From assembly GCA_004138175.2 (NCBI GenBank), contig RYFE02000002.1, positions 62,001 to 126,000 on the forward strand: a stretch of 64,000 nt of DNA. The letters run 5' to 3'. This DNA is from Chloroflexales bacterium ZM16-3 (GTDB taxonomy: Bacteria > Chloroflexota > Chloroflexia > Chloroflexales > Chloroflexaceae). The position numbers were made by a program, and so were the translations under genes. This document shows, in pieces, positions 12,875 through 28,640 of the stretch; the stretch's first letter is position 1, and each line of letters starts with the position of its first letter. Below the pieces are notes generated by a model. It was not told the DNA's origin, ran no database searches, and was given only the letters and a program-made list of their open reading frames with translations.

Positions 12875-12898
12875 GGGCGCATCGCGATGCGCCCCTAC
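12871..12898. repeat. perfect palindrome shared by two convergent genes
   Basis: A 28-bp perfect palindrome with half-site GTAGGGGCGCATCG. On the plus strand its TAG at 12872-12874 ends the MFS gene. On the minus strand the identical TAG at 12895-12897 ends the VWA gene. It could also act as a bidirectional terminator stem, but no T-run follows on either strand. Confidence 0.9.
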
Positions 12899-15735
12899 TC
12901 ATCGCCCGAGACGCGGCGACGTGCCCGGTCGCGCGCCGCCCTGAGTCGCTCTAGCGGGTCATCGGGCGCGGCGGGCTGGGGCTGGGGCTGCGGGGGCGTG
13001 GACGAGGGCGGCGCGGGCGCGCCGCCGATGCGCGCGCCGACCCGGCGCTTGGCCGCTGCCAGGCGCTCCAGCGGGTCATCGGGCGCGGCGGGGACGGGCG
13101 CGGCGCGGGCGGCCTGCCGGGCGGCCCACCACGCGCCCGCCGCGCCGAAGTCGCTCCGGCGCAGCATCAGGCGGCGCAGGGCGATGTCGAGCGGCAGCAG
13201 CAGCAGGGCCAGCAGCGCCAGGGTCAGGCCGATCTCGCGGGCCGAGGTGACCTGCATATCCACGTGGGCGAAGGCGTCGGCGGGCTGGCTGATCTGTGAC
13301 CCGCCGGTGATGCTTGCCAGCTCGCCGAGCAGAGCCGGGTTGCCCTGCGACGAGCGGTACTCCGAGGAGTAGGGCACCACTAGGCCGGCCGTCTCCTGGA
13401 TGATCGTTCGGTCGCCCTCTGCGCCGCTGATCTGCACCAGGTAGGTGCCGGGCGCGGGATTCTCGACTCGGCCCTGGTAGCTGCTCGGCCCAACCTGGGT
13501 CAGCGGCAGATCATGCTTGCTGCCGTCGCCGCCGATCAGGGTCGCGGTCACGGCCATGCCCTGCGAGCTGAGGGCGCCCGTATCCAGGCTCACCGTCGTC
13601 TCGCCGCCAGAGACAATCACGTCGGTGCTGATCTCCTGGCCGCCGCGCACAGGCAGCACCGAGTCGAGCAGCTGACCCATAAAGCGCGGGAAGCTCTCCC
13701 ATGTCAGCCAGTCCTTCGCCCACTTCCCACTGGCGTCGCTCATCCAGGCCGCACTGTGGCCCAGGCCGTACTGCCAGGTGGCCAGCAGCGGCTGGTCGTC
13801 GTCGGTGGACATCATCAGGCGCGCAGTGTCCTTGAGAGTGCTGCCGTTAAATCCGTAGAGCGGGGGCGTGGCGGATATCCCGGCGAGCAGCGGGCTCTGG
13901 CCAACGGCCACCGGGGTGAAGGGGCGCTCGATGATATAGTTGCCGACGCTGGTGATCGTCTCTTGGACGAAGATCTGTGGCACGTCGGCCATGTCCTGGG
14001 CCGCGTAGTAGCGCCCGCCGCCGTCCAGGGCCAGCTGCTCCAGGTAGTCGGCCGATCCGCCGCCAGCCGCCACCACGCTCAGGGTGATCCCCTCGCTACG
14101 CAGGCGCTCGGCGATGTCGTTCTGGCTGCCGCCGCCGCCCCAGCCGTCGGTGAGCAGGATCATATGCTTGATCCGGGCGTCCGCCCCGTTCAGCAGCTCC
14201 TCGGCCTTGAGCAGGCCGGCCCGCACATTGGTGGAGCCGCGCGGCTCCACGCCCGACACCGCGCTGATTACCTGATCGACGGTGGCCCCCTGGGTGATCG
14301 CCATTGTCGAGAATGCCTGGCCGTCGAAGGTGACAATGCCCATCTGGTCGTGCTCGCTGAGCAGGGCTGACGCCTGGGCGATCGCGTCCTTGGCGATGTC
14401 CACCTTGCGGTCGCCAGATGCGTTCATCTGGGTGCTGCTGCGATCAGAGCTGCTACAGTGGCAGGCATCCATGCTGCCAGACTTGTCGATCACGAAGACG
14501 ATCGCCAGGTCGGGGCGCTCCTCGCGGTTGCGCACGTCCATGTACACGGGCATGGCCTCCTCGACGGGGGTGCGCCCGTAACCGCCCACGCCGAAGCTCT
14601 TATCGCCGCCGATCATGAGCAGGCCCTTGCCGAGGTCGCGCACATAGGATGGCATGGCCGCCATCGCGCCGACGGGCAGGTCGCGGGCGGGTGTGTTCAC
14701 CAGAATAATTGCGTCGTAGACGCTGAGGCCAGCCAGATCGGTGGGGATGGCCCCAGGGGCGAGCGGCTCGGCCAGCACATTCGTGGCCGACAGGGCAGCG
14801 ACCAGGGCGGACGAGTCACGAGAGTTGGGTGAGACGACGAGCACCCTGGGCGGCCCCTGCACCTGGATGAGCGCGGACGCCTCGTTATTCTGCGCCCGGC
14901 CGTCGCGATCAGGCTGCACCTGGACGCGGTAGCGCTGGAAGCCGGAGCCGCTGACCGCCACCTCGAAGGGGATGATCGTGGCCCCAGGCTGGAGGTCGAT
15001 CTGGCGCTCGGCGATCACGCCGCCGTCACCCACCAGGCGCACCGTGGCCCGCTGGGCGATAGTGCTCTCGATAGTGGCCTTGAGCGTGGCCAGCTGGCCG
15101 TCGCGCACGCGGGTGGGAGCCTCAAGCTGGCCAACCAGCGCCTCGGCGTCGCCGCTGGGCAGGGCCAGGTTCACCACCGAGATCGGGATGCCCCTGGCGA
15201 CGGCGAGGCGGGCGGCATCAACGGCCTGCCCGCTGTTCTCAGCCCCATCCGAGAGCAGCACCAGGCGCTTCTCGGAGTCGCCAGGGAAGAGGGCAAGGCC
15301 AAGCTGGATGGCGTCGGCGATGTTGGTGCGGGTGGCCACCGGCACCGAGCTGACCCGGCCCAGGCGACGGACATCGCTCGGGGCGCGCTCGACCAGGGCA
15401 CCGCCCCCGAAGACCACAATCGCCGCCTGGTCGCCCTCGGGCATGGCGGTCAGAGACTCCTGGATGAAGGACTCTGCCTGGGCGCGCAGCGATGGGGCGA
15501 GCGAGTCGCTGCCGTCGAGCAGGAAGACAGTGGTGAGCTGGTCGACGGGGAGGACGAGCTGGGCACCGGCCACAGAGAGCACCAGCGCCAGGCCAATCAG
15601 GCTGCGCACCGCCAGCCCGCCCCAGAAGCGCCAGGGGCTCAGGCGGCGCGGCGCAAGCAGAGCCACGGCCCAGATTAGGGCGAGCGCGCTGAGCAGCCAG
15701 AGCATCTCGGGGTAGATGAAGGAGAGACGGGGCAT
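12895..15735 (-). CDS. large membrane protein with two von Willebrand factor A regions
   Basis: 946 aa. Two N-terminal membrane spans (LWLLSALALIWAVALLA and a second to about residue 65) resemble BatA/aerotolerance proteins. A first VWA domain has MIDAS DGSDS (74-78). Next comes a region like a class-I glutamine amidotransferase fold without a visible catalytic Cys (about 290-400). A second VWA has MIDAS DKSGS (417-421) with a Cys/Ser-rich insertion CHCSSSDRSS. Beta-rich domains and a last membrane span (LALLALLLLPLDIAL) follow, then an Ala/Pro-rich tail holding two copies of APDDPLERL. It most likely sits in the membrane with VWA domains outside. Function unknown. Confidence 0.85.
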   Translation of the reverse strand: MPRLSFIYPEMLWLLSALALIWAVALLAPRRLSPWRFWGGLAVRSLIGLALVLSVAGAQLVLPVDQLTTVFLLDGSDSLAPSLRAQAESFIQESLTAMPEGDQAAIVVFGGGALVERAPSDVRRLGRVSSVPVATRTNIADAIQLGLALFPGDSEKRLVLLSDGAENSGQAVDAARLAVARGIPISVVNLALPSGDAEALVGQLEAPTRVRDGQLATLKATIESTIAQRATVRLVGDGGVIAERQIDLQPGATIIPFEVAVSGSGFQRYRVQVQPDRDGRAQNNEASALIQVQGPPRVLVVSPNSRDSSALVAALSATNVLAEPLAPGAIPTDLAGLSVYDAIILVNTPARDLPVGAMAAMPSYVRDLGKGLLMIGGDKSFGVGGYGRTPVEEAMPVYMDVRNREERPDLAIVFVIDKSGSMDACHCSSSDRSSTQMNASGDRKVDIAKDAIAQASALLSEHDQMGIVTFDGQAFSTMAITQGATVDQVISAVSGVEPRGSTNVRAGLLKAEELLNGADARIKHMILLTDGWGGGGSQNDIAERLRSEGITLSVVAAGGGSADYLEQLALDGGGRYYAAQDMADVPQIFVQETITSVGNYIIERPFTPVAVGQSPLLAGISATPPLYGFNGSTLKDTARLMMSTDDDQPLLATWQYGLGHSAAWMSDASGKWAKDWLTWESFPRFMGQLLDSVLPVRGGQEISTDVIVSGGETTVSLDTGALSSQGMAVTATLIGGDGSKHDLPLTQVGPSSYQGRVENPAPGTYLVQISGAEGDRTIIQETAGLVVPYSSEYRSSQGNPALLGELASITGGSQISQPADAFAHVDMQVTSAREIGLTLALLALLLLPLDIALRRLMLRRSDFGAAGAWWAARQAARAAPVPAAPDDPLERLAAAKRRVGARIGGAPAPPSSTPPQPQPQPAAPDDPLERLRAARDRARRRVSGDE

Positions 15736-15910: not shown

Positions 15911-18703
15911 ATGACCAACCCCGAGACCCCGCCCGCGCGCCCGGCGGAGATGGACAAGGCATACGAGCACCAGCCGGTCGAGCAGAATCTCTATACGTGG
16001 TGGGAGCGCAGCGGCTTCTTCGCGCCCCGCGCCGATGCGCCGCGCCCGCCCTTCGTGATCTCCATCCCGCCGCCCAACGTCACCGGCGAGCTGCACCTCG
16101 GCCACGCCATGTTTGTGACGATTGAGGATCTGATGATCCGCTGGCGGCGTATGCAGGGCTTCCAGACGCTCTGGGTGCCCGGCACCGACCACGCCGGGAT
16201 CGCGACCCAGTCCCAGGTCGAGAAGCTGCTGCGCAGCGAGGGCACCACCCGCGAGGCCGTCGGCCGCGAGGAGTTCCTGCGCCGCACCTGGGAGTGGAAG
16301 GAGAAGTACGGCGGCGAGATCCAGAACCAGCTGCGCCGCCTCGGCGCATCCTGCGACTGGGAGCGCGAGCGCTTCACCCTCGACGCCGGCCTCTCGCGCT
16401 CGGTCCACACCGCCTTCAAGCGGCTCTACGACGACGGTCTGATCTATAAGGGCACCTACCTCGTCAACTGGTCGCCCACCCTCGGCACCGCCGTGAGCGA
16501 CCTTGAGGTCGAGTATGAGACGCGGAATGTCTCGATCTGGTATGTGCGCTACCCGGTGGTGCCCCAGGAGTCGGGGGACGGGAGTCAGGAGCCGGGAGCC
16601 GGGCCGTTTGGCCACGCATGGGGCAGCGGCAGGTGGGCCGAGGGGGTGACGGAGTGGATCACGGTGGCGACGACCCGCCCCGAGACGATCCTGGGCGATA
16701 CGGCGATCGCGACCGCCCACGGCGACGAGCGCTTCGCGCACCTGCTGGGCCGCCAGGCCATCCTGCCCGCCCTCGGCCGGGCTATCCCGATCATCGCCGA
16801 CGAGTATGTGGACAAGGAGTTCGGCTCCGGCGCGGTCAAGATTACCCCCGCCCACGACAAGAACGACTACGAGGTCGGCAAGCGCCACGGCCTGGCGCAG
16901 ATCAATATTCTCAACCGGGACGCCACGGTTAACGCCGAGGGCGGCCCCTACGCCGGGATGGACCGCTTCGCCGCCCGCAAGGCGATGCTGGCCGACCTTG
17001 AGAAAGAGGGGCTGCTGGTAAGGACCGAGCCGCACACCATGAGCGTCGGGATCAGCCAGCGCGGCGGCGAGGTGATCGAGCCGCTGCTCTCCGAGCAGTG
17101 GTTTGTGAAGGTGCGCCCCCTGGCCGACATGGCCCTGGCCGCCGTGCGCGAGGGCCGCACCAAGATCATCCCCGAGCGCTTCGAGCGGGTCTACTACAAC
17201 TGGATGGAGAACATCGAGGACTGGTGCATCTCGCGCCAGCTCTGGTGGGGGCACCGCATCCCCGTCTGGTACATGCCCGACGGCACCATGGTCGTCCCCG
17301 GCCCCGACGAGGCCCCGCCCGAGGGGGCAACGCAGGACCCGGACGTGCTCGACACCTGGTTCTCCTCGGGCATCTGGCCCTTCAGCACCCTCGGCTGGCC
17401 CGACGAGACGCCCGACCTCAAGGCGTTCTACCCGACCAGCGTGATGGAGACAGGCTACGACATTATCTTCTTCTGGGTGGCCCGTATGATGATGATGGGC
17501 TGCTACCTGACCGGCACCGAGCCCTTCCACACGATCTACCTGCACGGCCTGGTGCGCGACGAGCATGGCCGCAAGATGTCCAAGTCATACGGCAATGTGC
17601 TCAACCCGCTTGAGATTATGGACGCGCAGGGCACTGATGCGCTGCGCTTCACCCTGGCCACATCGGGCACGCCTGGCCAGGACATGAACCTCAACCCGCA
17701 GCGCATCGAGTCTGCCCGCAACTTCGCCAACAAGATCTGGAACATCACGCGGTTTGTGATCAGCAAAGGCGTTGGGCAGGCACAAGGCGCTGCCCCAACA
17801 AACTCAACGTACGGGCAGCGCCTTGTGCCTGCCCCTACTACCCTCGCCGACCGCTGGATCATCTCGCGCTACAACCGGCTCTGCCTGGACGTGAACCGGC
17901 TGCTGGAGGGCTACAACTTCGGCGAGGCTGGCCGCCAGCTGCAGGATTTCCTCTGGGGCGAGTTTGCCGACTGGTATGTGGAGATCGCCAAGGTGCAGCT
18001 TGAGGGCGACGCCGTAGGGGCGGACCTGAGTGTCCGCCAGCAGACCACCCGCGCGGTGCTCTACACTGTGCTGGAGGGCGCGCTGCGCCTGCTGCACCCT
18101 TACATTCCATACGTCACCGAGGAGGTCTGGCAGTACCTGACCCGCGTGGAGGGCCGGGAGCCCGCGCCGGACCACAGCCTGATGCTGGCCAGCTACCCGA
18201 CGGGCGACGAGGCTCTTGTGAGCGATCAGGCCGAGGCGAACTGGGGGCTGGTGCAGGAGCTGATCGTGGCCATCCGCAACATTCGCAGCGAGTACAAGGT
18301 GGAGCCTGCGCGCTGGGTGGCGGCCACAATTGTGGCTGGGGAGCGGGCGGGGATGCTGCGCGAGCAGGCGGCCCTGATCGCCCGCCTGGGCCGCGTGGAC
18401 GCCGAGAAGCTGACCATCGTCGAGTCGCTGGAGTCCAAGCCCGGCCAGTCGGCGGCGATTGTGATCGGCACGCTGGAGGCGTACCTGCCGCTGGCCGGCC
18501 TGATCGACCTGGCCGCCGAGCGCGCGCGCCTGGCCAAGGAGCTGGAGCAGGCCGAGGCCGACGTGGCCCGCCGCGAGGCAAAGCTGGCAAACGAGGGGTT
18601 TGTGGCCAAGGCCCCGGCCAACGTGGTGCAGCGCGAGCGCGATAGCCTGGAGCAGGCCCGCGCCGCGCTGGCCGCGCTGCGCGGGCGGCTGGCTGAGCTG
18701 TAA
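15911..18703 (+). CDS. valS: valyl-tRNA synthetase ValS, with repeat-derived insertions
   Basis: Charges tRNA-Val with valine; class Ia synthetase. 930 aa. HLGH (62-65, the HIGH motif), the CP1 editing domain with TRPET, GSGAVKITPAHD and KMSKS (555-559) are present. The C-terminal coiled-coil domain AERARLAKELEQAEADVARRE closes the protein. Three stretches look foreign: residues about 219-230, encoded by 7-bp repeats; about 622-642, encoded by a palindrome with perfect 22-bp arms; and about 702-710, encoded by a shorter GTAGGGGCGG palindrome. All keep frame and fall in variable connecting parts, so the enzyme is probably active. Confidence 0.97.
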   Translation: MTNPETPPARPAEMDKAYEHQPVEQNLYTWWERSGFFAPRADAPRPPFVISIPPPNVTGELHLGHAMFVTIEDLMIRWRRMQGFQTLWVPGTDHAGIATQSQVEKLLRSEGTTREAVGREEFLRRTWEWKEKYGGEIQNQLRRLGASCDWERERFTLDAGLSRSVHTAFKRLYDDGLIYKGTYLVNWSPTLGTAVSDLEVEYETRNVSIWYVRYPVVPQESGDGSQEPGAGPFGHAWGSGRWAEGVTEWITVATTRPETILGDTAIATAHGDERFAHLLGRQAILPALGRAIPIIADEYVDKEFGSGAVKITPAHDKNDYEVGKRHGLAQINILNRDATVNAEGGPYAGMDRFAARKAMLADLEKEGLLVRTEPHTMSVGISQRGGEVIEPLLSEQWFVKVRPLADMALAAVREGRTKIIPERFERVYYNWMENIEDWCISRQLWWGHRIPVWYMPDGTMVVPGPDEAPPEGATQDPDVLDTWFSSGIWPFSTLGWPDETPDLKAFYPTSVMETGYDIIFFWVARMMMMGCYLTGTEPFHTIYLHGLVRDEHGRKMSKSYGNVLNPLEIMDAQGTDALRFTLATSGTPGQDMNLNPQRIESARNFANKIWNITRFVISKGVGQAQGAAPTNSTYGQRLVPAPTTLADRWIISRYNRLCLDVNRLLEGYNFGEAGRQLQDFLWGEFADWYVEIAKVQLEGDAVGADLSVRQQTTRAVLYTVLEGALRLLHPYIPYVTEEVWQYLTRVEGREPAPDHSLMLASYPTGDEALVSDQAEANWGLVQELIVAIRNIRSEYKVEPARWVAATIVAGERAGMLREQAALIARLGRVDAEKLTIVESLESKPGQSAAIVIGTLEAYLPLAGLIDLAAERARLAKELEQAEADVARREAKLANEGFVAKAPANVVQRERDSLEQARAALAALRGRLAEL
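16566..16600 (+). repeat. heptamer repeat inside valS
   Basis: Five 7-bp units: AGGAGTC, GGGGGAC, GGGAGTC, AGGAGCC, GGGAGCC. They code for residues of about 219-230 at the edge of the editing domain. Confidence 0.85.
17774..17834 (+). repeat. in-frame palindromic element inside valS
   Basis: Perfect 22-bp arms (17774-17795 and 17813-17834) with a 17-nt loop. The right edge continues GCCCCTAC, the same end as the GTAGGGGC palindromes between genes. It lies between the catalytic-domain segment WNITRFV and LADRWIISR. Confidence 0.9.
18014..18038 (+). repeat. second palindromic fragment inside valS
   Basis: Starts GTAGGGGCGGAC and folds back through GTCCGCC (7-bp arms 18019-18025 and 18032-18038). 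It looks like a truncated copy of the same repeat family, encoding about VGADLSVRQ. Confidence 0.65.
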
Positions 18704-19656: not shown

Positions 19657-20016
19657 TCAGCTCCCGATCAGCTCGCGCACGGTTGTGAGCAGGCCACTGA
19701 GGTTGCCATTCTTAGAAACGTAGGCGCTAAACCCTTGTGACACAAATTCGCCTGAGGATTGCTCGGTACGGGCGGTATATGCGATGACGGGACATACGAC
19801 CCCCAGGGTGCGCAGCTGCTGAAGCGTATGCAGGCCATCCATGCCAGCCATACTAATATCCAGAATGATCACATCGGGCAGATTCGCCTTCGCGGCGGTG
19901 ATCGCCTCGTGGCCGCTATCTACCGAATAGACTTCGTAGCGCCCGACGTGACGCAGGATGCGCTCAGTCATTGAGCGAGCGGTATAGACATCATCAACAA
20001 GCAAGATCTTTGCCAT
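19657..20016 (-). CDS. single-domain response regulator (CheY-like)
   Basis: 119 aa receiver domain only. Asp8/Asp9 bind Mg, Asp53 in VIILDISMAGMDGL is the phosphoacceptor, and a Thr in AYTART and Lys in YVSKNG complete the switch. No output domain. It follows the histidine kinase gene by 115 bp in the same direction and is presumably its partner or a phospho-relay shuttle. The ATG at 20016 follows a modest ribosome site (AAGGATCG). Confidence 0.93.
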   Translation of the reverse strand: MAKILLVDDVYTARSMTERILRHVGRYEVYSVDSGHEAITAAKANLPDVIILDISMAGMDGLHTLQQLRTLGVVCPVIAYTARTEQSSGEFVSQGFSAYVSKNGNLSGLLTTVRELIGS

Positions 20017-20131
20017 GAGTCGATCCTTGTTCTGTCGGCATTGGGCTATCGGGAAGGGTGCAGTAGCACCGCTCTGCTGCGCCCTTCCTGGGCTGGCTCC
20101 ATCCTCGCAGGATCAGTATGGTGCCCCGCTA

Positions 20132-21571
20132 TTAATCTGGCTCTGTTGTGTGTACTGCATTCCCGTTTAGGGCAGGCTGGACACGTGGCAGCGTGAAGGA
20201 GAAGATACTCCCTTTACCCAACTCGCTCTCGACCCACATCTTGCCACCATGCAAATCTACGAGCCAGCGGCAGATCGAGAGGCCGAGTCCTGTTCCGGTG
20301 TGCTGCTTGGCATCGTGGCTTTCCACCTGCTCGAACTGGTTAAAGATGCGGGTCTGGTCTCCATCGGCGATACCGATCCCGGTATCGCGCACCCAGATGA
20401 TCACCTCGTAGTCCTCAACCCGAGCGCCGATGGCGACCTCGCCGATCATGGTGAACTTGCAGGCATTCGACACAAGGTTGAGGAGCACCTGGCGCACGCG
20501 GACAGCATCGATGAGGACGCTCGGCAGCGGGTTTGCGTACTCGCGTCGGAGCAGCACCGGCCGATCTTTGAGCAGGCCACTGGCCGTGCGTATGGTCTCG
20601 TCGAGCAGGGGCACGAGGGGCACTGCGGCCTTATTGAGCTCAAGGCGACCGGCCTCGATGCGGGCGAGGTCGAGGATATCATTGATCAGGCCAAGGAGGT
20701 GCTGGCCGCTGCGCTTGATCTCGACGATATCTGCGGTGATCGCCTCGGAGATCGGTTGTCCATCGTACATCTCGGGATGATCAATCATCGCGCTGCTAAA
20801 GCCGATGATGATATTGAGCGGGGTGCGCAGCTCGTGCGACATGGTGGCCATAAAGCTCGACTTCGAGCGATAGGCCGCCTCTGCCTCGGCGCGAGCTGTC
20901 TCAAGATCTAGGGTCAGCTTATAGAGGCGATCATTGAGCTGATCGCGCTCGCGCAGGGTGCCCTCAAAATCGGCCTGGGTGGCGCGGAACAGCTTCTCAC
21001 GCCGCTCCGACTTTCTAGAGGTCTCCAGCGCCCAGCCGATGGTGCCGTGGATCGCATAGCCGGCCGCCCAGGTCAGCGCCGCTGCGCTGAGCAGCAGGAC
21101 GACCATGGTCATGCCGACGGCGATGTTGAGCCCTGGCTCGGCACGCTCGTGGCCAAGCAGGCCGGGGAAGGCGAGCAAGATCAGCAGTACGCTCAGGGCG
21201 ACGCGCGCGACGCGGAGCGGGGCCTGGGGCGAGATCAGTACGCCAGCGGCGATGACGCCGGTGGTAGCGAGGTAGATCAAGGTGTTGTTGGCTAGGCCGA
21301 ACGGGATGATGCTACAGATCGGCAGAAGGGCGAGGGTGTAGGAGATTACGGCCCCGGCCTGGCGCAGCCGACCGCGCTGGAAGAGCGAACTGCTGGCCCA
21401 GACGCTGAGAACCAGGGTGCAGACGAGGAGGTAGGGCGATAGACTGGATCGCCATTGGGCGAGGAGGAGGAGGCCGAAGGACATGGCGGCGATGGTGCCG
21501 ATCACCGCAAGCAGCGGGGGCAGCACTTCGGCGGCGAGGTTCTCGTCGGGAAGCGTATTGGTGCGTTGCAT
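20132..21571 (-). CDS. membrane sensor histidine kinase
   Basis: 479 aa. About six membrane spans in residues 18-180 form the input domain, with no large extracellular loop. A coiled-coil linker (185-235) leads to HisKA with His246 in MSHELRTPLN, then HATPase_c with the N box NLVSNACKF, G1 DTGIGI, F box FNQFEQ and G2 GTGLGLSI. It likely senses a membrane or lipid-borne signal or a partner protein. Its position after the two solute-binding proteins and the coiled-coil protein suggests they feed it information; that is inference. Confidence 0.95.
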   Translation of the reverse strand: MQRTNTLPDENLAAEVLPPLLAVIGTIAAMSFGLLLLAQWRSSLSPYLLVCTLVLSVWASSSLFQRGRLRQAGAVISYTLALLPICSIIPFGLANNTLIYLATTGVIAAGVLISPQAPLRVARVALSVLLILLAFPGLLGHERAEPGLNIAVGMTMVVLLLSAAALTWAAGYAIHGTIGWALETSRKSERREKLFRATQADFEGTLRERDQLNDRLYKLTLDLETARAEAEAAYRSKSSFMATMSHELRTPLNIIIGFSSAMIDHPEMYDGQPISEAITADIVEIKRSGQHLLGLINDILDLARIEAGRLELNKAAVPLVPLLDETIRTASGLLKDRPVLLRREYANPLPSVLIDAVRVRQVLLNLVSNACKFTMIGEVAIGARVEDYEVIIWVRDTGIGIADGDQTRIFNQFEQVESHDAKQHTGTGLGLSICRWLVDLHGGKMWVESELGKGSIFSFTLPRVQPALNGNAVHTTEPD

Positions 21572-21711
21572 GGTGTGTGGTCGCGGTCGTGGCGGCCACT
21601 CGTGCGAGGGCCTGCGGCAGCTTATAGTTTGGGTCTACCATCACAATATTGATCGTAGGTGCCGCCGCAGGCTCTGTCAATACGTCTACATTTCAGTTCG
21701 GTGAATATTTG

Positions 21712-22446
21712 CTAAATACCAGTCATCGCGCTGTCGAGCACCCGCTGGAAGGCGTCCATATCGGCCTTGATATCGCGCAGCCGGTCGGCCACTTGTCCGC
21801 TCATCGAGCTGGCAGCCACCGCATCGGCAGTGCGCAGGCGCACGGTCTCGGCCAGCACATTGTCGAGGCTCGCGTCGATATTGGCGAGCTGGGCGTTGAT
21901 CCGGCCGATGTAGGTCTCCAGGTCGGTCGCGTTGCGCTGGCGGTCGGCTAGGGCGGCGCGGGTCTCCTGGAGCTGCTGGAGGGTGTAACTGTCCCTGGTA
22001 TTGGCGATCTGGATGTCGATGCCGTTGATCTGATCCTGGATCTGGCGGGCGTTAGCGGTGGCGAGGTACTGCTCGATGATCTGGCCCTTGCTGGCCAGGT
22101 CGTGGGCCTCGGTCACCAGCTCGCGGCTCTGGTCGACGACGGGGCGCAGGGCGTTGGCCAGGGGTGCCGGGGCGGCCACCGCCGACTTCTCAACCTCGCG
22201 CTGCGAGCGGTCGATCTCACCGACAACAGCGCGGAAGGTCGGGCTGGTGAGCTTCGGCAGCGGCGCCGGGCGGGGCGCGGCTACTGCGGCCAGGCCAGGG
22301 TCGCGGGCGGCCAGGGCCACGGCGGCGGCGTAGGCCAGCAGTCCCAGGGGCAGCAGCCAGATCGCGACGGTGCTCCCGGCGATGACCGATGCCACCAGGA
22401 CGATGATGTTGAGCGGCCGGGTTGCGGCAATGGTGAGGTTATTCAT
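21712..22446 (-). CDS. membrane-anchored coiled-coil protein of unknown function
   Basis: 244 aa. Two adjacent hydrophobic segments at the N-terminus (about 11-47: LNIIVLVASVIAGSTVAIWLL and LGLLAYAAAVALAA) are followed by a Pro/Ala linker and a long, charged helical region. Heptad patterns run from about residue 75 to the end, for example VDQSRELVTEAHDLASKG and RQIQDQINGIDIQIANTRD. I do not recognise a family. It sits between the SBP-VWA gene and the histidine kinase, all in one direction, and may be a scaffold of that system. Confidence 0.75.
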   Translation of the reverse strand: MNNLTIAATRPLNIIVLVASVIAGSTVAIWLLPLGLLAYAAAVALAARDPGLAAVAAPRPAPLPKLTSPTFRAVVGEIDRSQREVEKSAVAAPAPLANALRPVVDQSRELVTEAHDLASKGQIIEQYLATANARQIQDQINGIDIQIANTRDSYTLQQLQETRAALADRQRNATDLETYIGRINAQLANIDASLDNVLAETVRLRTADAVAASSMSGQVADRLRDIKADMDAFQRVLDSAMTGI

Positions 22447-22449
22447 AGA

Positions 22450-22512
22450 GGTTGGGGGTTAGGGGTTGGGGGTTGGGGGTTGGATCCAACCCCCAACCCC
22501 CAACCCCCAACT
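22450..22512. repeat. inverted heptamer array, G-rich then C-rich
   Basis: Nine consecutive 7-bp units: five of GGTTGGG type (one GGTTAGG), then four of the complementary CCCAACC type, meeting at GGATCC. It can form a long hairpin, and the G-rich strand could form a G-quadruplex. It fills the whole gap between two genes of the cassette. Confidence 0.9.
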
Positions 22513-22513
22513 C

Positions 22514-24136
22514 CTAGAAATAGCGACTCAGGTTCTCGAAGATCTGGGCGATGTCGCCGGTGTCGCCGGCGACGACGATTGTGCGCGAGAACTCGGCGAT
22601 CGCATCCAGGATGGATCGGTCGGCGTCGGCTCCGTAGGCCACTGGGAAGATGCTCACGCCGGTCTCATCGAAGCTTGCCTGGAGCTGCTGGAGGGTGAGT
22701 TGGCTGGAGTTGTCCGCGCCATCGGAGAGCAGGACGATCGCCTTGATGCGCTCCTCGCCGGTCTCGGGCAGGCTGGCGAGGGACTGGCGAGCTAGGTCAA
22801 CGGCGTCGAAGACGGCGGTCTTCCCAGAGGCGCGCATGTTGCCAATCGCCGTCTGGAGCGGGATGCGATTATCGCTCAGCGCCGCAGGGGGGACGACCTC
22901 GGTGGCCGTGTTGGAGAAGGTGATCAGGCCGATGCGGTCGTCGGGGAGGATTCTGAGCAAGAAGCTCTCTAGCCCGGCCTTGGTCAGCTCTAGTTTATCG
23001 CCCTCCATTGAGCCAGACGTATCGACGACGAGAATGATGTCGGCGCGCTTGCGGTTGAGCGCCCACGAGTTCTTCACAGCCACGATCACATCGGCCTTGG
23101 GTGCTTCGAGGATGCTCTGGACGCCCTGGGGCTGCACACCATAGGCAGCGCTGATCGGGTCGGCCAGGGGCACGTTCACATTGGCCGGGCGGAAGCCGAA
23201 TCCCATGGCGAGGCGCTGGCTCTCATCGGTGAGCAGGAAGTCGTAGAACACCTTGGCGGCCTGCTGCTCCTCGGCGGTGGCCGATGCCATCACGATGTAG
23301 GGGTCGTCGTGCCAGAAGGTGCCCTCCTTGGGGTAGATCGCCACGAGGGGAGTGGCTGGCGGATCGACCTTGTTGAAGTCGATCAGGGTGATCTCCTCCA
23401 TGGGGAAGGCCGAGATGTAGCTCATCCCGAACTTCTTCATGTTCTGGCTGAAGACGAGCGTGTTGTAGCCGTAGTGCTTAATGCCCTGGCCGAGGTCGCG
23501 GACAAACTGCTGAGATTGGGCGCTCTGCACATCGGCGGCGGTGAGGCCGCGCTGCTTCCCTGTCGCGGCGTAGAACTCGGCGATCAGGGTGCTCAGTGCG
23601 CTCGTGCTGATCTCAGGGTCGGTGTGGCCCCAGGAGAAGCGGCCCCACTCGGGGTGGCCAAACTTGCCCCAGCCCTGCGGGTCCTGGATCAGGTCGAGCA
23701 TATCGCCCCAGCCGATCGGCTTGTTGGGCCAGCCAAGCGCTTCGGCCATGGGCCGCCACATGCCGATCACCACCGGGGTCAGCACGAGCGGCTCGTTGGA
23801 GACGGCCACGCCCTGGTTCCCGGTCTCCTGGCGCAGCACCTCAAGCCAGGTGCTGGCCGAAGGGCTCCAGACGGTGGGCGTCAGGTTACCGTTCTTGATC
23901 TCGGTGCGGGCGGCGCCGGACGACTTGTTGACGCCCTCGACGAAGATGGTCTGGTCGCCGACCTTGGCGTTCTGGCTGTTGAAGGTGGCGATGCGCTCGG
24001 TGAGCCAGCTCTCCTTCTCGGGGCTGTAGGCGATGCTGATGCGCAGGGCGTTTGAGGGGGTGCCGCCGGAGTCGCCGCAGGCGGAGAGAACCCCGGCGAT
24101 CATGGCAAGCAACAGCAGCATAGAGAGTCGTCGCAT
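22514..24136 (-). CDS. lipoprotein with fused solute-binding and VWA domains
   Basis: 540 aa. A lipoprotein signal peptide ends at Cys20 (GVLSAC). Residues about 30-330 form a type-2 periplasmic binding fold of the SBP_bac_11 kind (LRISIAYSPEKESWLTERI start, WGHTDPEISTSALSTLI, then YPKEGTFWHDDPYIV). Residues about 365-540 are a VWA domain with intact MIDAS DTSGS (372-376), a Thr in SGKTAVFDAV and Asp in LLSDGADNS. It should be displayed on the outer face of the membrane. The paralogous SBP encoded just upstream lacks the VWA part. Ligand and partners are unknown. Confidence 0.9.
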   Translation of the reverse strand: MRRLSMLLLLAMIAGVLSACGDSGGTPSNALRISIAYSPEKESWLTERIATFNSQNAKVGDQTIFVEGVNKSSGAARTEIKNGNLTPTVWSPSASTWLEVLRQETGNQGVAVSNEPLVLTPVVIGMWRPMAEALGWPNKPIGWGDMLDLIQDPQGWGKFGHPEWGRFSWGHTDPEISTSALSTLIAEFYAATGKQRGLTAADVQSAQSQQFVRDLGQGIKHYGYNTLVFSQNMKKFGMSYISAFPMEEITLIDFNKVDPPATPLVAIYPKEGTFWHDDPYIVMASATAEEQQAAKVFYDFLLTDESQRLAMGFGFRPANVNVPLADPISAAYGVQPQGVQSILEAPKADVIVAVKNSWALNRKRADIILVVDTSGSMEGDKLELTKAGLESFLLRILPDDRIGLITFSNTATEVVPPAALSDNRIPLQTAIGNMRASGKTAVFDAVDLARQSLASLPETGEERIKAIVLLSDGADNSSQLTLQQLQASFDETGVSIFPVAYGADADRSILDAIAEFSRTIVVAGDTGDIAQIFENLSRYF

Positions 24137-24222
24137 AGCGTAATCCTCACGGGCGTCTGGATCGCGAAAGACGCGAAGCCGAGCGAAAGACAGGAAGGCG
24201 AAGGGCGCGGACAGTGATGCTC

Positions 24223-25377
24223 TTAGGGCCGGGCTGCGCTCCAGGTGGACACCAGTGCGTCGATCACATCGCCGGAGGGCACGGCCACCTGCGGGGGGAT
24301 ATCGATCTGGATGCCGCTGGCGGCGTAGCGCCCGAAGGGGCTGGCCGGGTCATTCGGGCTGATCTGCACCTGCGGGCTGGCCGGGCGGAAGCCGTACTGC
24401 TGGAGGGCGAGCTGCTGCATCTCGCGGGAGAGCAGGAAGTCGCGGAACTGATCGGCTGCCTGGCGCTGCGCAGATGTGACCCAGGGCGCGCTGAGCACGG
24501 CGTAGGGATGGTCGCTCAGGATGGTGGCTGGCGGGTAGATGGCGCGCATGCCACCGTAGTTCTTAGCGGCCGGGCTGGCCATAGCCTCGATGGCTAGGTT
24601 CTCGTAGACGGTGACAAAGTCGTAGGTGCTCGGGCCATAGCGCAGCATGTCGGTCATCAGGGTGCCGGTGCTGTCGTCGGGCTGGGGAACGGCCTGCTCG
24701 ATGCCGCTAAGCCAGTCGCGGAAGCCAAGATCCTGAGCCTGGGCGGCGCTAAGCTGGGCGGAGCCGCTATAGCCGTAGGCGAGGAGTAGCAGGGTCTGCG
24801 TGCCGCTGTTGGATGTCTCGGGGTTGGTGTGGCCGAACTTCAGCCGGCTGTCGGGCGCGCTCAGGGTGGTCTGGATGTCCTTCCAGAAGGTGGCAGGGTT
24901 GGCTTCCTCGATCTGCTGTGCGGGCTCACCCCAGGCCAGCAGCACCAGCGGGGTGATCACCAGGGGTCTGGGGGCGTCGGCACCATCGCCGATGATTGTG
25001 CCGCCCTTACTGGCCGCCCACGAGCTGCGCAGCTGCTCGATCTGCACCATGCTGGCCGGACTGACGACCGTGGGCTGGTAGCCACTCTGCACAATGTCGG
25101 TGACGATCTCGCGGGAGCCACGGCCCTGCAGCACGATCTGGACGGGCCGCCCGCCGACGCGGGGGTTGCTGGCGGCGAAGCGCTCGGCGGCGGCCTTCAG
25201 CCACTGCTCCTTCTCGCTGCCGTAGGCGATCGTTATGACGACGGACGCACCGCCGGGGCCAATGGTGGCGATCTGGAAGGGTGCCCAGCCAAGTGGGCCG
25301 ACGAACAAGGTCAGGAGGGTGATGATCAGGGCTAACAGAAGGTAGCCGCCGGACAGCATCCGTGAGAGACGCAGCAT
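24223..25377 (-). CDS. membrane-anchored solute-binding protein (SBP_bac_11-like)
   Basis: 384 aa. One N-terminal membrane span or uncleaved signal (about 11-35) without a lipobox is followed by a periplasmic-binding fold. It shares the start pattern ITIAYGSEKEQWLKAAAERF with the IAYSPEKESWL of the next gene, as well as GHTNPETSNSGTQTLLLL. The two are paralogues. No ABC permease or ATPase is nearby, so a signalling or capture role is more likely than transport. The following gene starts 86 bp downstream; an operon is likely. Confidence 0.88.
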   Translation of the reverse strand: MLRLSRMLSGGYLLLALIITLLTLFVGPLGWAPFQIATIGPGGASVVITIAYGSEKEQWLKAAAERFAASNPRVGGRPVQIVLQGRGSREIVTDIVQSGYQPTVVSPASMVQIEQLRSSWAASKGGTIIGDGADAPRPLVITPLVLLAWGEPAQQIEEANPATFWKDIQTTLSAPDSRLKFGHTNPETSNSGTQTLLLLAYGYSGSAQLSAAQAQDLGFRDWLSGIEQAVPQPDDSTGTLMTDMLRYGPSTYDFVTVYENLAIEAMASPAAKNYGGMRAIYPPATILSDHPYAVLSAPWVTSAQRQAADQFRDFLLSREMQQLALQQYGFRPASPQVQISPNDPASPFGRYAASGIQIDIPPQVAVPSGDVIDALVSTWSAARP

Positions 25378-25526: not shown

Positions 25527-28500
25527 TTAGCCTGGTGCGGCAGGCATGCCAAGCAGCGCCTGGCGCAGATCCTCGATCTGCATCGGCTTGCTCAGGTAGG
25601 TGTCCATCCCGGCCCGCAGGTACTTATCGTGTTCGTCCATCACGTCGTGGGCGGTCAGGGCGATGATATAGGGCTGGTGGACGGTCGCGCCGAGCTGGCG
25701 GATCTGCTGCGTCGCCTGGATGCCATCGATTTCGGGCATCTCCACGTCCATCAGCACCACGTCGTAGGGTCTCTGGCGAATCGCATCCACGGCCAGGATG
25801 CCGTCCTTGACCATATCAGCCTGGTAGCCAAGCCGATCAAGGAAGCGCATGATCACCAGTTGGTTGATCGGGTTGTCTTCGGCCACAAGCACGCGCAGCG
25901 GGCGGGGGGCGACCGCTTCTCTTGGCGTGTCAATGGAGGTTGGCGTGACAGGCGCGTCTACTGGCTGGAGCGGTACCACAACCGTGAAGGTCGAGCCGCG
26001 ATGGGGTGTGCTTATAGCGCTGATCATACCGCCCATCAGTTCGACAAGCTGTCGGCAGATCGCGAGGCCGAGGCCGGTGCCTCCGTAGCGGCGGGTGGTG
26101 GCGCTGTCGGCCTGGACAAACGGCTCGAAGATCTGCGCGATCTGCTCCTGTGCGATGCCAATGCCTGTGTCGCGCACCTCAAAGACAATGGCAGATTGGA
26201 GATTGGAGATGGCAAGTTGCGTTGCTGTGGCATCCGAATTGGCAATCGGTCGGACGCGCAGCGTCACCGTGCCTTGGGCGGTGAACTTCACGGCGTTTGC
26301 CAGCAGATTGATCAGCACCTGACGTAGCCGGACGACATCGCCGATGACGGTGTGGGGCAGGCTGGCTCTAATGTCCTTTGCGAAGGCCAGCCCCTTGCGC
26401 TTGGCCTGATAGGAAACCAGGGCGCAGGCATCGTCGACACAGGCGACAAGGTCGAAGGGCTGTGACTCAAGCTCCACTCGGCCCGAATCGATCTGTGAGA
26501 AGTCGAGGATGTGCGAGATCACCGCGAGCAGTGTCTCTCCCCCGGTGCGGATCGTCTCCACATAGGCGCGCTGCTCCTGGCCGAGCGAGGTCTCGGCCAG
26601 GAGGCTAGCCATGCCAAGCACCGCGTTGAGCGGCGTGCGGATCTCATGGCTCATGGTTGCCAGGAACGAGGATTTGGCCCGGTCGGCGGCCTCGGCGGCC
26701 TCCTTGGCCCGCAGCACCGCATCGGCAGACTGACGGGCCTCGGTGATATCGCGCACGACACAGAGGATCTGCGCGGGGCTAATCGGTAGCAGGCGGGCCT
26801 CGTAGATGCGCAGCTCGCCTGCCAAGGGCAGTGCGTACTCGATGATCTGCATCTTGCTGACGCTGCGCGTCTCACGGATCGCACGTATCAGTTGCGGCCC
26901 GATCGGGTCGGGCAGCACGGCATCGACCTTGCGCCCCAGGAAGGACTCCGGCGGGAGGTAGAGATTCTCGATATTCGGCGCGTGGTAGTTCACAATCACC
27001 GCTTCGTTATCCATCACAAAGAGCAGGTCGGGCAAGGCATCGCGCAGGGCGCGCAGGCTGGCCTCGCTGGCAGCCAGCGCCTGTTCGGCCTCCCATCCCT
27101 GGTTGAAGCTGACGATCATCTCGGCGGCGGTATGCAGCATCTGGACGGCATCATCGTCCCAGATACGGTCATCGGTGTGGTTGTTCACACTGATATGGCC
27201 CCACCAGAGATCGCCCACGACGATTGGCTGGAATACCACCGTCCGAATGCCATTATCGGCCTGGTACTGCTCAAAGATTGGGTTGTTGGGGAATCGCTTG
27301 GCGATGACGCCGCTGAAGCTTTTGCCCTGTGCCAGGCACCAGCTCAGCTCATCGGGGATGTCGCGTACCTCTGCGAGGGTGGCCATGCGCTGCGGCCGCA
27401 GAGTCGGTGCGTTCACCGCGCCGATCAGGCGCATCATCGTCGATATCCGCGCCAGCCCCTGCTCCCAGTCGGGATAGGAGTAGACGGCGACGCGGTCGGC
27501 CCCCACTGCGACCCGCAGTACCTCCAGGGCATTGGCCAGGGTCTTACGATAGGCATCGTCATCCGCACTGCGGGTGAGCAAGATGCGTGAGCAGCTGGCC
27601 AACGCCTCGGCGTAGCGCAGCTGGCGGGCCAGCGCCAGCTCGGCCTCTTTGCGCACCGTGATGTCGCGGGAGAGGCCGACCAGCCCGATCAAGGCACCGG
27701 CCTCATCGTAAATGGGGGTGCGGCTGCTGTCGAACCAGCGCATCGTGCCGTCCTTCCCGCCGACGGCGCGCTCGTTATAGTAGGGCTGCCCGTCGAAGAC
27801 TTTCTGATCGCCCTTGGCAATAAAGGCAGCGAGATCCGCGTCGTACAGCTGATCTGCGGTGCGGCCGATCATATCTTCGGGGCGATAGCCGTGGTAGGTG
27901 GCGAGAACATCGCTGGCCATCATGTAGCGGCCCTGGCGATCTTTGAGCCAGAACTGCTCGGGGATGGTGCGCAGGATCAGCTGGAGGTGGCGATGGGCCT
28001 CATTGAGGCTGGCGGTGCGCTCGACCACGCGGCGCTCCAGATCCGCGTTGGCCGCCTCGGTGAGCAACAGGCTCTCGCTCAGCCGGTTGATCAGCGAGGC
28101 GACCATCGCCAGCACGAGCCAGATGGTATAGATGGTGAACATCACGTTCACCGCCAGCAGAGTCGGATCGGCCAGGCTCGCGGCCATGTTGGGAGTGAAG
28201 GCCAGCCAGCCCGCGCCGATGGCGAAGAAGACCGCGATAACGGTGGCCGTGACCAGCGCCGCTACGCCCAGCGCCTGCTGCCAGTGGCACAGCAAGGCCG
28301 CCATAATCGTGGTCAAGAAGAGGAGCAGGATGCCGATGTCAGCGATCCCGTTCTGGATGATCAGAAGTGTCCCGACCAGATAGCCAAACGCAATCAGCAC
28401 CTGCGCGCGGATCTGCACTGAAACCTGGGGCAGCAGGGCGACGGCGACGATGATGATGTAGCCGCTACAGGCGAAGAAGGCAAAGAAGATCCTCCCGCCG

Positions 28501-28640
28501 CGCAGATCTTGGATGGTACTGACGACGACAATCGGCAGGGCGAAGGCCAGGGAGATCCGCAGAAAGAAGTTCAGGAGTGTGCGACGCCACTCCTGAAGGG
28601 CTGGCAATTCGGGGGGGCGCACAAATGGATTGCTATTCAT
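25527..28640 (-). CDS. hybrid sensor histidine kinase (membrane, PAS, GAF, PAS, HisKA, HATPase, REC)
   Basis: 1037 aa. Six or so membrane spans in residues 20-190, then a PAS domain (about 215-335, FWLKDRQGRYMMASD). A GAF domain (about 350-520) is followed by a second PAS (about 530-635). HisKA has His665 in MSHEIRTPLN; HATPase_c has NLLANAVKF, DTGIGIA and GTGLGLAI. A C-terminal receiver carries Asp965 in VVLMDVEMPEIDG. The stretch QLAISNLQSA (about 808-817), just before the G1 box, is encoded by 7-bp repeats and looks inserted. The target regulator is not evident. Confidence 0.95.
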   Translation of the reverse strand: MNSNPFVRPPELPALQEWRRTLLNFFLRISLAFALPIVVVSTIQDLRGGRIFFAFFACSGYIIIVAVALLPQVSVQIRAQVLIAFGYLVGTLLIIQNGIADIGILLLFLTTIMAALLCHWQQALGVAALVTATVIAVFFAIGAGWLAFTPNMAASLADPTLLAVNVMFTIYTIWLVLAMVASLINRLSESLLLTEAANADLERRVVERTASLNEAHRHLQLILRTIPEQFWLKDRQGRYMMASDVLATYHGYRPEDMIGRTADQLYDADLAAFIAKGDQKVFDGQPYYNERAVGGKDGTMRWFDSSRTPIYDEAGALIGLVGLSRDITVRKEAELALARQLRYAEALASCSRILLTRSADDDAYRKTLANALEVLRVAVGADRVAVYSYPDWEQGLARISTMMRLIGAVNAPTLRPQRMATLAEVRDIPDELSWCLAQGKSFSGVIAKRFPNNPIFEQYQADNGIRTVVFQPIVVGDLWWGHISVNNHTDDRIWDDDAVQMLHTAAEMIVSFNQGWEAEQALAASEASLRALRDALPDLLFVMDNEAVIVNYHAPNIENLYLPPESFLGRKVDAVLPDPIGPQLIRAIRETRSVSKMQIIEYALPLAGELRIYEARLLPISPAQILCVVRDITEARQSADAVLRAKEAAEAADRAKSSFLATMSHEIRTPLNAVLGMASLLAETSLGQEQRAYVETIRTGGETLLAVISHILDFSQIDSGRVELESQPFDLVACVDDACALVSYQAKRKGLAFAKDIRASLPHTVIGDVVRLRQVLINLLANAVKFTAQGTVTLRVRPIANSDATATQLAISNLQSAIVFEVRDTGIGIAQEQIAQIFEPFVQADSATTRRYGGTGLGLAICRQLVELMGGMISAISTPHRGSTFTVVVPLQPVDAPVTPTSIDTPREAVAPRPLRVLVAEDNPINQLVIMRFLDRLGYQADMVKDGILAVDAIRQRPYDVVLMDVEMPEIDGIQATQQIRQLGATVHQPYIIALTAHDVMDEHDKYLRAGMDTYLSKPMQIEDLRQALLGMPAAPG
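26192..26219 (-). repeat. heptamer repeat inside the hybrid kinase gene
   Basis: Units CAGATTG, GAGATTG, GAGATGG, CAAGTTG on the plus strand, 7-bp period. Related to the GATTGCA repeat at 10402-10422. Confidence 0.7.

Follow-up and report, generated by a model that had tools for sequence, protein, structure and literature searches.

Sensing through a solute-binding protein (SBP) coupled to a kinase has already been described for several bacterial systems, and the outline given here draws on excerpts of the papers cited. In the HptASR system of Staphylococcus aureus the secreted SBP HptA passes its ligand state to the membrane kinase HptS, and HptR acts as the regulator (PMC8774646, PMC8534201). 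The SBP gene of CuaDSR from Ruminiclostridium cellulolyticum is located beside a two-component pair, and its product binds the kinase (PMC10384115). For the co-conserved genes of the GlnH-GlnX-PknG system of Actinobacteria it has been proposed that a lipoprotein SBP signals via a transmembrane (TM) helical protein to the kinase (PMC6069109, PMC9769921); GlnX crosses the membrane four times and has two four-helix bundles in the periplasm (PMC9769921). Proteins uniting a Ser/Thr kinase with an extracellular solute-binding domain were reported for Streptomyces coelicolor and Nostoc in a survey of 2005 (PMC1262709), and operons of PspA/Snf7 and AAA+ proteins with an ATP-binding cassette (ABC) transporter and a PBPB-OmpA protein have been described (Ravi et al. 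2024, PMC11237479). Here we analyze a five-gene cassette at positions 19657-25377 of a 64,000-nucleotide stretch of DNA (the window) from the phototrophic Chloroflexales bacterium ZM16-3, which encodes an SBP, a lipoprotein fusing an SBP domain to a VWA domain (SBP-VWA), a coiled-coil protein (CC), a histidine kinase (HK) and a response regulator (RR).

We moderately favour the reading that SBP, SBP-VWA and CC constitute an outside-to-inside receptor module with swappable cytosolic outputs, and not a transporter. It is based on the domains of these proteins, their conserved neighbourhoods, an SBP-Ser/Thr kinase fusion protein encoded in one lineage, the differing kinases encoded beside the module and the small number of permease domains nearby. 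All five open reading frames (ORFs) are present on the minus strand with ATG starts, and transcription would proceed from SBP through SBP-VWA, CC and HK to RR, with intergenic gaps of 86, 67, 140 and 115 bp along this order. The order and place of the genes thus agree with a preliminary description of this DNA, and so do the domains it claimed: Pfam assigns an SBP, an SBP plus a VWA domain, HisKA and HATPase_c in the kinase and a lone Response_reg in the regulator (Table 1).

Table 1 The cassette and neighbouring features in the window
Feature	Coordinates	Strand	Description
SBP	24223..25377	-	Type-II solute-binding protein; SBP_bac_11; single N-terminal TM anchor; no lipobox seen
SBP-VWA lipoprotein	22514..24136	-	Type-II SBP domain (~29-364) and C-terminal VWA (~364-540) with complete MIDAS
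CC	21712..22446	-	Predicted TM hairpin, then helical coiled-coil domain; conserved partner family, no Pfam match above cut-off
HK	20132..21571	-	Six-TM histidine kinase; HisKA and HATPase_c; phospho-acceptor His246
RR	19657..20016	-	Receiver-only, CheY-like; D8/D9, D53, T81 and K102 present (T81 and K102 counted by eye)
Two-VWA protein	12895-15735	-	Large protein; two VWA stretches and GATase1-like region (Pfam)
Presumed ValRS gene	15911-18703		Named from its sequence; convergent, between the cassette and the two-VWA protein gene
C-rich repeats	22447-22513		Short CCCCCAA-like repeats before the CC start; no ribosome-binding site obvious by eye
Hybrid histidine kinase	25527-28640	-	Directly upstream of SBP; MASE11, PAS, GAF, HisKA, HATPase, REC

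The SBP_bac_11 domain of SBP was assigned with an E-value of 1e-22. A hydropathy scan places one hydrophobic span at the N-terminus of the protein, and a single span in this position is found in 16 of 19 SBP relatives; in loci L152 and L252 the span is internal, behind a kinase-sized region, and in L190 there is none. The ORF of L190 (L190:4775-5893, Oscillochloris sp. ZM17-4) lacks the usual N-terminal anchor region and has a different N-terminus ahead of the conserved part.

SBP-VWA matches SBP_bac_8 (3.9e-18), SBP_bac_11 (8e-13) and VWA (4.1e-19). The lipobox cysteine Cys20 is present; it is unchanged throughout alignment A2 (16 sequences) and is not in the 90% list of alignment A6. The metal ion-dependent adhesion site (MIDAS) is complete (D372-x-S374-x-S376, T440, D472), and none of its five residues varies among the 40 sequences of A6, which include that of the window. 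For the VWA domain the preliminary description had conjectured a metal-dependent adhesion switch; what the analysis covered of this is the intact MIDAS. In the AlphaFold model of the protein (predicted local distance difference test, pLDDT, 91.2) the fold of the binding half is that of ABC importer receptors, namely AfuA and the thiamine-, sulfate- and ferric-binding proteins. The top Foldseek row is AfuA (4r74, E 5e-12, 14% identity), and the comparison with the thiamin-binding protein 2qry gives a VIA Z of 26.3 with a root mean square deviation (rmsd) of 3.1 over 282 aligned residues. The VWA domain 4fx5 is matched with Z 25.2 (rmsd 1.9, 175 aligned), and this half of the protein resembles BatB, inter-alpha-trypsin inhibitor chains and the vWFA domain of LapA. 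The structure 6lkg_A, entitled 'two-component system protein mediate signal transduction' and which we take to be HptA, scores Z 24.2 (rmsd 3.4, 269 aligned), a value that ties with those of many other SBPs. In several Chloroflexales genomes (loci L040, L041, L074, which is the same place as L206, L076 (L226) and L077 (L227)) a second SBP-VWA subfamily, ~36-44% identical and with its own SBP and CC, adjoins the SBP-VWA of the window type. In L054 (2060-4753, minus strand) a single protein fuses SBP_bac_3, SBP_bac_11-type and VWA domains.

CC, which the preliminary description had presented as an unrecognised protein with two spans, has no Pfam match above the curated cut-off. Hydropathy scores one span; in the AlphaFold model (pLDDT 87.9) a hairpin of helices 11-26 and 29-47 is followed by further helices. 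According to column mapping the hairpin turn is two residues long in 25 of 25 aligned rows and longer in more distant members; in the CC of L233 eight residues are inserted a few residues past the turn. The N-side flank of the hairpin carries at least one basic residue in all 25 rows, and on the C-side flank basic residues outnumber acidic ones in 22, equal them in two and are fewer in one (L266). Because of these charges the helical coiled-coil domain is, under the positive-inside rule, probably cytoplasmic, so that direct contact of CC with SBP-VWA is unlikely. Distant CC proteins, from other classes and from records titled Actinobacteria, align with CC in profile-profile comparison with a probability of 99.8 over 252 columns; in L234 the reading frame seems to be broken in the second half of the ORF taken as CC. 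The Foldseek search with CC gave no match at E <= 0.001 (best E 0.09). Chains of BAR domains recur at VIA Z ~9-11 and the best Z, 13.9, belongs to a designed protein, values in the range of helical bundles, and we do not claim a BAR- or ESCRT-like fold. Relationship to PspA was rejected (profile-profile probability 1.7 or less), and the idea of a resemblance to TelA/XpaC was dropped as neither a TelA nor an XpaC Pfam match was obtained; TelA was not found in the genome of the window and is present in 2 of 41 genomes searched. The proteins of 261-277 amino acids (aa) encoded in L240, L256, L268 and L241 have by eye two hydrophobic spans and a coil, but profile comparison does not establish them as CC homologs, the probability being 36-53 over 51-67 columns only.

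Hydropathy places six hydrophobic spans of HK at residues 20-166, joined by loops of a few residues and with no large outside domain, which bears out the earlier description of a six-span kinase without a large sensory loop. As RR has no effector domain, it must act via protein contact.

The distribution of SBP-VWA was followed in three collections, the loci of which stem partly from the same genomes, so that the counts are not additive. SBP-VWA matches were found in 52 of 150 genomes of the class (E <= 1e-30), and profile matches in 69 of 400 genomes of the phylum (E <= 1e-40). CC was found in 40 of these 400, all 40 being among the 69 with an SBP/SBP-VWA profile match (G088 via the SBP match only). 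In a scan of a genome collection the best 80 of 427 SBP-VWA relatives represented 79 distinct loci; they were taken best-first, and therefore phyla far from that of the window are under-sampled. The closest named relative among these 80 is from Oscillochloris sp. ZM17-4 (Chloroflexota, 93%). The names are record titles, some of them of metagenome-assembled genomes, and the relatives include records titled Solirubrobacteraceae, Betaproteobacteria, Kuenenia, Planctomycetota, Myxococcales, Blastocatellia and Verrucomicrobia. Genes in the fetched loci were called with a simple ORF picker using composition scoring, which may leave GC-rich shadow ORFs. SBP, CC and/or HK genes lie within four genes of SBP-VWA on the same strand in 61 of the 79 named loci: 28 loci have CC and SBP (six of them also HK), 20 SBP only, nine CC only and four HK only. 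By these predicted gene orders the neighbourhood of SBP-VWA is more than chance, and the conserved unit is SBP/SBP-VWA/CC, all three or two members of which occur jointly throughout Chloroflexota and also under record titles of other phyla. Plasmid carriage (3 of 72,556 records) was rejected, and so was an anti-phage role, three proteins compared with PADLOC having given weak matches only.

HK orthologs (E <= 1e-85) were detected in 19 of the 150 class genomes. All 19 possess SBP-VWA, and in 14 the two genes are located within ~3 kb, so kinase and binding proteins are indeed neighbours; in G010, G143 and G148 the end of a contig prevents judging the distance. The complete order SBP, SBP-VWA, CC, HK, RR was found in G060, G070, G038, G022, G058, G050, G030 and G066, and in G040 with an additional copy of SBP-VWA. 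Among the loci mapped it is confined to genomes of the window's genus and of the genus holding Chloroflexus islandicus. The operon is split in G032, G056, G086 and G112, where SBP and CC are paired in one place and SBP-VWA and HK in another. Judged from this distribution, HK with its CheY-like partner is a lineage-specific addition to the three-gene unit.

Other outputs are encoded beside the module in relatives. Directly upstream of SBP-VWA in L152, from a family holding Dictyobacter and Ktedonobacter records (Ktedonobacteria), a single protein consists of a zinc ribbon, a Ser/Thr kinase (Pkinase 83-331), a TM span (421-439) and SBP_bac_11 (461-754); L151 and L154, read by eye, have the same kinase-SBP layout. 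In L265, titled Anaerolineae, genes for an SPFH protein, SBP, SBP-VWA, CC, a response regulator of 236 aa and an sCache-HAMP-PAS histidine kinase were found, and in L056 SBP, SBP-VWA and CC are followed by a HAMP-GAF-PAS histidine kinase. L179 combines a REC-HisKA protein, PspA and CC, with the SBP-VWA of that genome on another contig (L159). A type-I periplasmic binding protein (PBP) follows CC, or a protein in its place, in L049/L233, L160, L165 and L166 as read; Peripla_BP_6 was assigned to 4 of 135 flanking proteins, and Pfam was applied by name to L165 alone. The links to PspA, AAA+ and type-I PBP genes lie in lineages other than that of the window. The attachment of one three-gene module to different kinases or membrane-care proteins argues that it is probably a sensor and not a part of a nutrient pump.

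In the mechanism that we infer, SBP and SBP-VWA would bind a small ligand outside the membrane, and VWA, via a MIDAS metal, would probably keep both binding proteins, or some other partner at the surface, in contact depending on the ligand. The state of this complex would be relayed across the membrane to whichever cytosolic output the lineage has attached. For Oscillochloris and Chloroflexus this output would be the six-TM HK and its CheY-like RR, and CC may serve as an inner-membrane hairpin adaptor beside HK. To reach HK, the signal could pass by contact with the kinase's spans or short loops, or via the anchor helix of SBP.

Several observations weigh against the receptor module as proposed. 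Signal crossing to HK is the weakest step of the mechanism, since by hydropathy HK, unlike HptS or CuaS, has no sizeable extracytoplasmic domain on which an SBP could dock, and since CC is predicted to be cytoplasmic, the connection from outside to inside would be left to the anchor of SBP and the spans of HK. No ortholog of the window HK was detected in 33 of the 52 class genomes with SBP-VWA, some of which are incomplete, so the module has some function without HK, which speaks against a role tied strictly to this kinase; the five-gene unit proposed in the preliminary description is therefore overstated, the wider unit being SBP/SBP-VWA/CC. HK and the window-type SBP-VWA are on different contigs in G149 and G048, the SBP-VWA contig continuing. 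By the tally 18 of the 79 loci lack a module partner, or 16 once L249 and L253 are counted, which scored as partnerless because their SBP fusions were dropped for ORF overlap. Solo SBP-VWA genes are common, e.g. in Herpetosiphon, where SBP and CC sit elsewhere, and beyond Chloroflexota all three genes occur in one run only in L266 and L267, the other loci having two or one.

Among the alternatives, a module for envelope homeostasis is fairly unlikely but deserves the most weight: SBP and SBP-VWA would watch or tether the envelope, CC would aid PspA- or ESCRT-like proteins at the inner membrane, and kinases would be regulators added in some lineages. In a set of 179 loci searched with a local PspA profile, 12 distinct ones contain a match, in each case on the strand of a module gene and at a distance of one or two genes from it, and Pfam PspA_IM30 is above the cut-off in ten of the 12 (L160, L163, L177, L178, L179, L185, L233, L240, L256, L268); it is also the commonest family among the 135 flanking proteins, with eight matches. 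The position test on all 12 loci (p = 2e-5) is biased, as the profile had been built from six of them, chosen as flanking genes in the first place; without these six the mean distance is 224 bp versus 2527 bp expected (p = 7e-5, n = 6). L240 has the order SBP-VWA, SBP, PspA, a 277-aa protein without assignment and an AAA+ ATPase, and downstream of SBP-VWA in L268 come PspA, a 261-aa protein without assignment and AAA+. An SPFH protein (Band_7_1) is encoded upstream of the module in L265, and a 77% identical protein in L254. However, loci with PspA are a minority, some genomes are represented twice in the set, and of the two loci outside these ten L165 stays under the Pfam cut-off and L166 gives no match. 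In the genome of the window a single PspA was found, encoded on a different contig (G000:C51); none is among the eight window proteins scanned with Pfam, and CC, as described above, is not PspA-like.

Orphan SBPs sharing permeases are known, and the importer-receptor fold of SBP-VWA would suit binding proteins that serve an unlinked ABC importer, with the HK-RR pair as an unrelated neighbour or as the regulator of that importer. We regard this as improbable: the permease domain BPD_transp_1 is present in just 2 of the 135 flanking proteins of 42 loci, so the binding proteins are not always accompanied by an ABC permease; SBP is fused behind a kinase in L152; and the conserved linkage is with CC and SBP-VWA, not with transporter genes. 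The 25 families listed for the flanking proteins do not include ABC_tran, so the count covers the permease domain and not the ATPase. The locus maps show no transporter gene as an evident conserved partner, and no permease or ATPase domain was found in the eight window proteins scanned, the unlinked permeases of the genome not having been searched. The earlier preference for sensing over transport is thereby supported, also by the kinase-fused SBP relative. The complete and invariant MIDAS and the likeness of VWA to the proteins named above would in turn fit an adhesin or assembly factor that grips surface polymers or complexes in a MIDAS-dependent way, its SBP domain being a structural relic. 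This we hold to be the least probable of the three, and very improbable, as the SBP half is conserved at least as well as the VWA half (31 of 47 invariant A6 columns are N-terminal to residue 320), 48 of the 79 named loci encode a second SBP no more than four genes away, and the L054 protein has a further SBP_bac_3 domain fused on.

The hybrid kinase upstream of the cassette was rejected as its member, as near the module elsewhere just kinase matches of low identity (27-35%) were found. Between the cassette and the gene of the two-VWA protein there is one gene, the convergent one presumed to encode ValRS.

More tentatively, and with doubt outweighing belief, we put forward SBP/SBP-VWA/CC as an undescribed cross-phylum receptor module that would link the upkeep of the envelope to a small-molecule signal, with a metal-dependent VWA as the gate, the outputs of the module being two-component systems, Ser/Thr kinases or PspA/AAA+ membrane remodelling. 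In the literature covered (titles, starts of abstracts and some passages of PMC texts under CC0, CC BY or CC BY-SA licences) no description was found of SBP-VWA proteins together with either kinases or PspA. Should the proposal hold, a single receptor design derived from transport-type binding proteins would have been combined with three or more kinds of output in the cytosol, and some genes annotated as binding proteins of ABC transporters may encode sensors. It would also offer a testable route to the activators of some orphan Chloroflexota kinases and point to a signal from outside that PspA systems may receive.

The comparison with the described systems likewise relies on the excerpts of their reports. 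L240 joins PspA, an AAA+ ATPase and a solute-binding protein as do the PspA/Snf7-AAA+ operons, and a counterpart of PBPB-OmpA may be seen in L164 (3164-4795, plus strand), where a protein with an NMT1-type binding domain and an OmpA-like stretch (E 1e-4, below the Pfam cut-off) is encoded between CC and SBP-VWA. These operons differ in having an ABC transporter, none of which stands out in the SBP/SBP-VWA/CC modules; the terms 'vWA' and 'SBP' are not in the main text of PMC11237479, and PspA is not among the window proteins scanned. In its presumed mode of action the cassette resembles HptASR, CuaDSR and GlnH-GlnX-PknG, yet by hydropathy it lacks a feature that defines the first two, a docking domain on the kinase. 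In the window, as in HptASR, an SBP gene adjoins genes of a histidine kinase and a response regulator, and AfuA, which heads the Foldseek matches of the SBP-VWA model, is a sugar-phosphate binding protein. In contrast, HptA docks on a periplasmic domain of HptS, whereas the window HK has six short-looped spans by hydropathy; the HptASR passages mention neither VWA nor CC, and the window regulator is receiver-only. The position of an SBP gene beside a two-component pair is also shared with CuaDSR, but the extracellular domains of CuaS were modelled with CuaD, whereas two SBPs, a VWA, CC and a kinase that lacks extracellular domains of this kind are encoded in the window. From the kinase-SBP fusions of the 2005 survey L152 differs in that it carries the SBP_bac_11-type SBP of the module and adjoins SBP-VWA. 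Compared with GlnH-GlnX-PknG, the window has genes for a lipoprotein (SBP-VWA) and for a coiled-coil protein with TM anchorage, but the kinase is a histidine kinase, VWA is not mentioned in the passages on GlnH-GlnX-PknG, and CC is a predicted TM hairpin with a helical domain that is probably on the cytoplasmic side, in contrast to the periplasmic bundles of GlnX. Sensing by an SBP together with a kinase is thus an already known principle, of which the SBP/SBP-VWA/CC module is a differing form.

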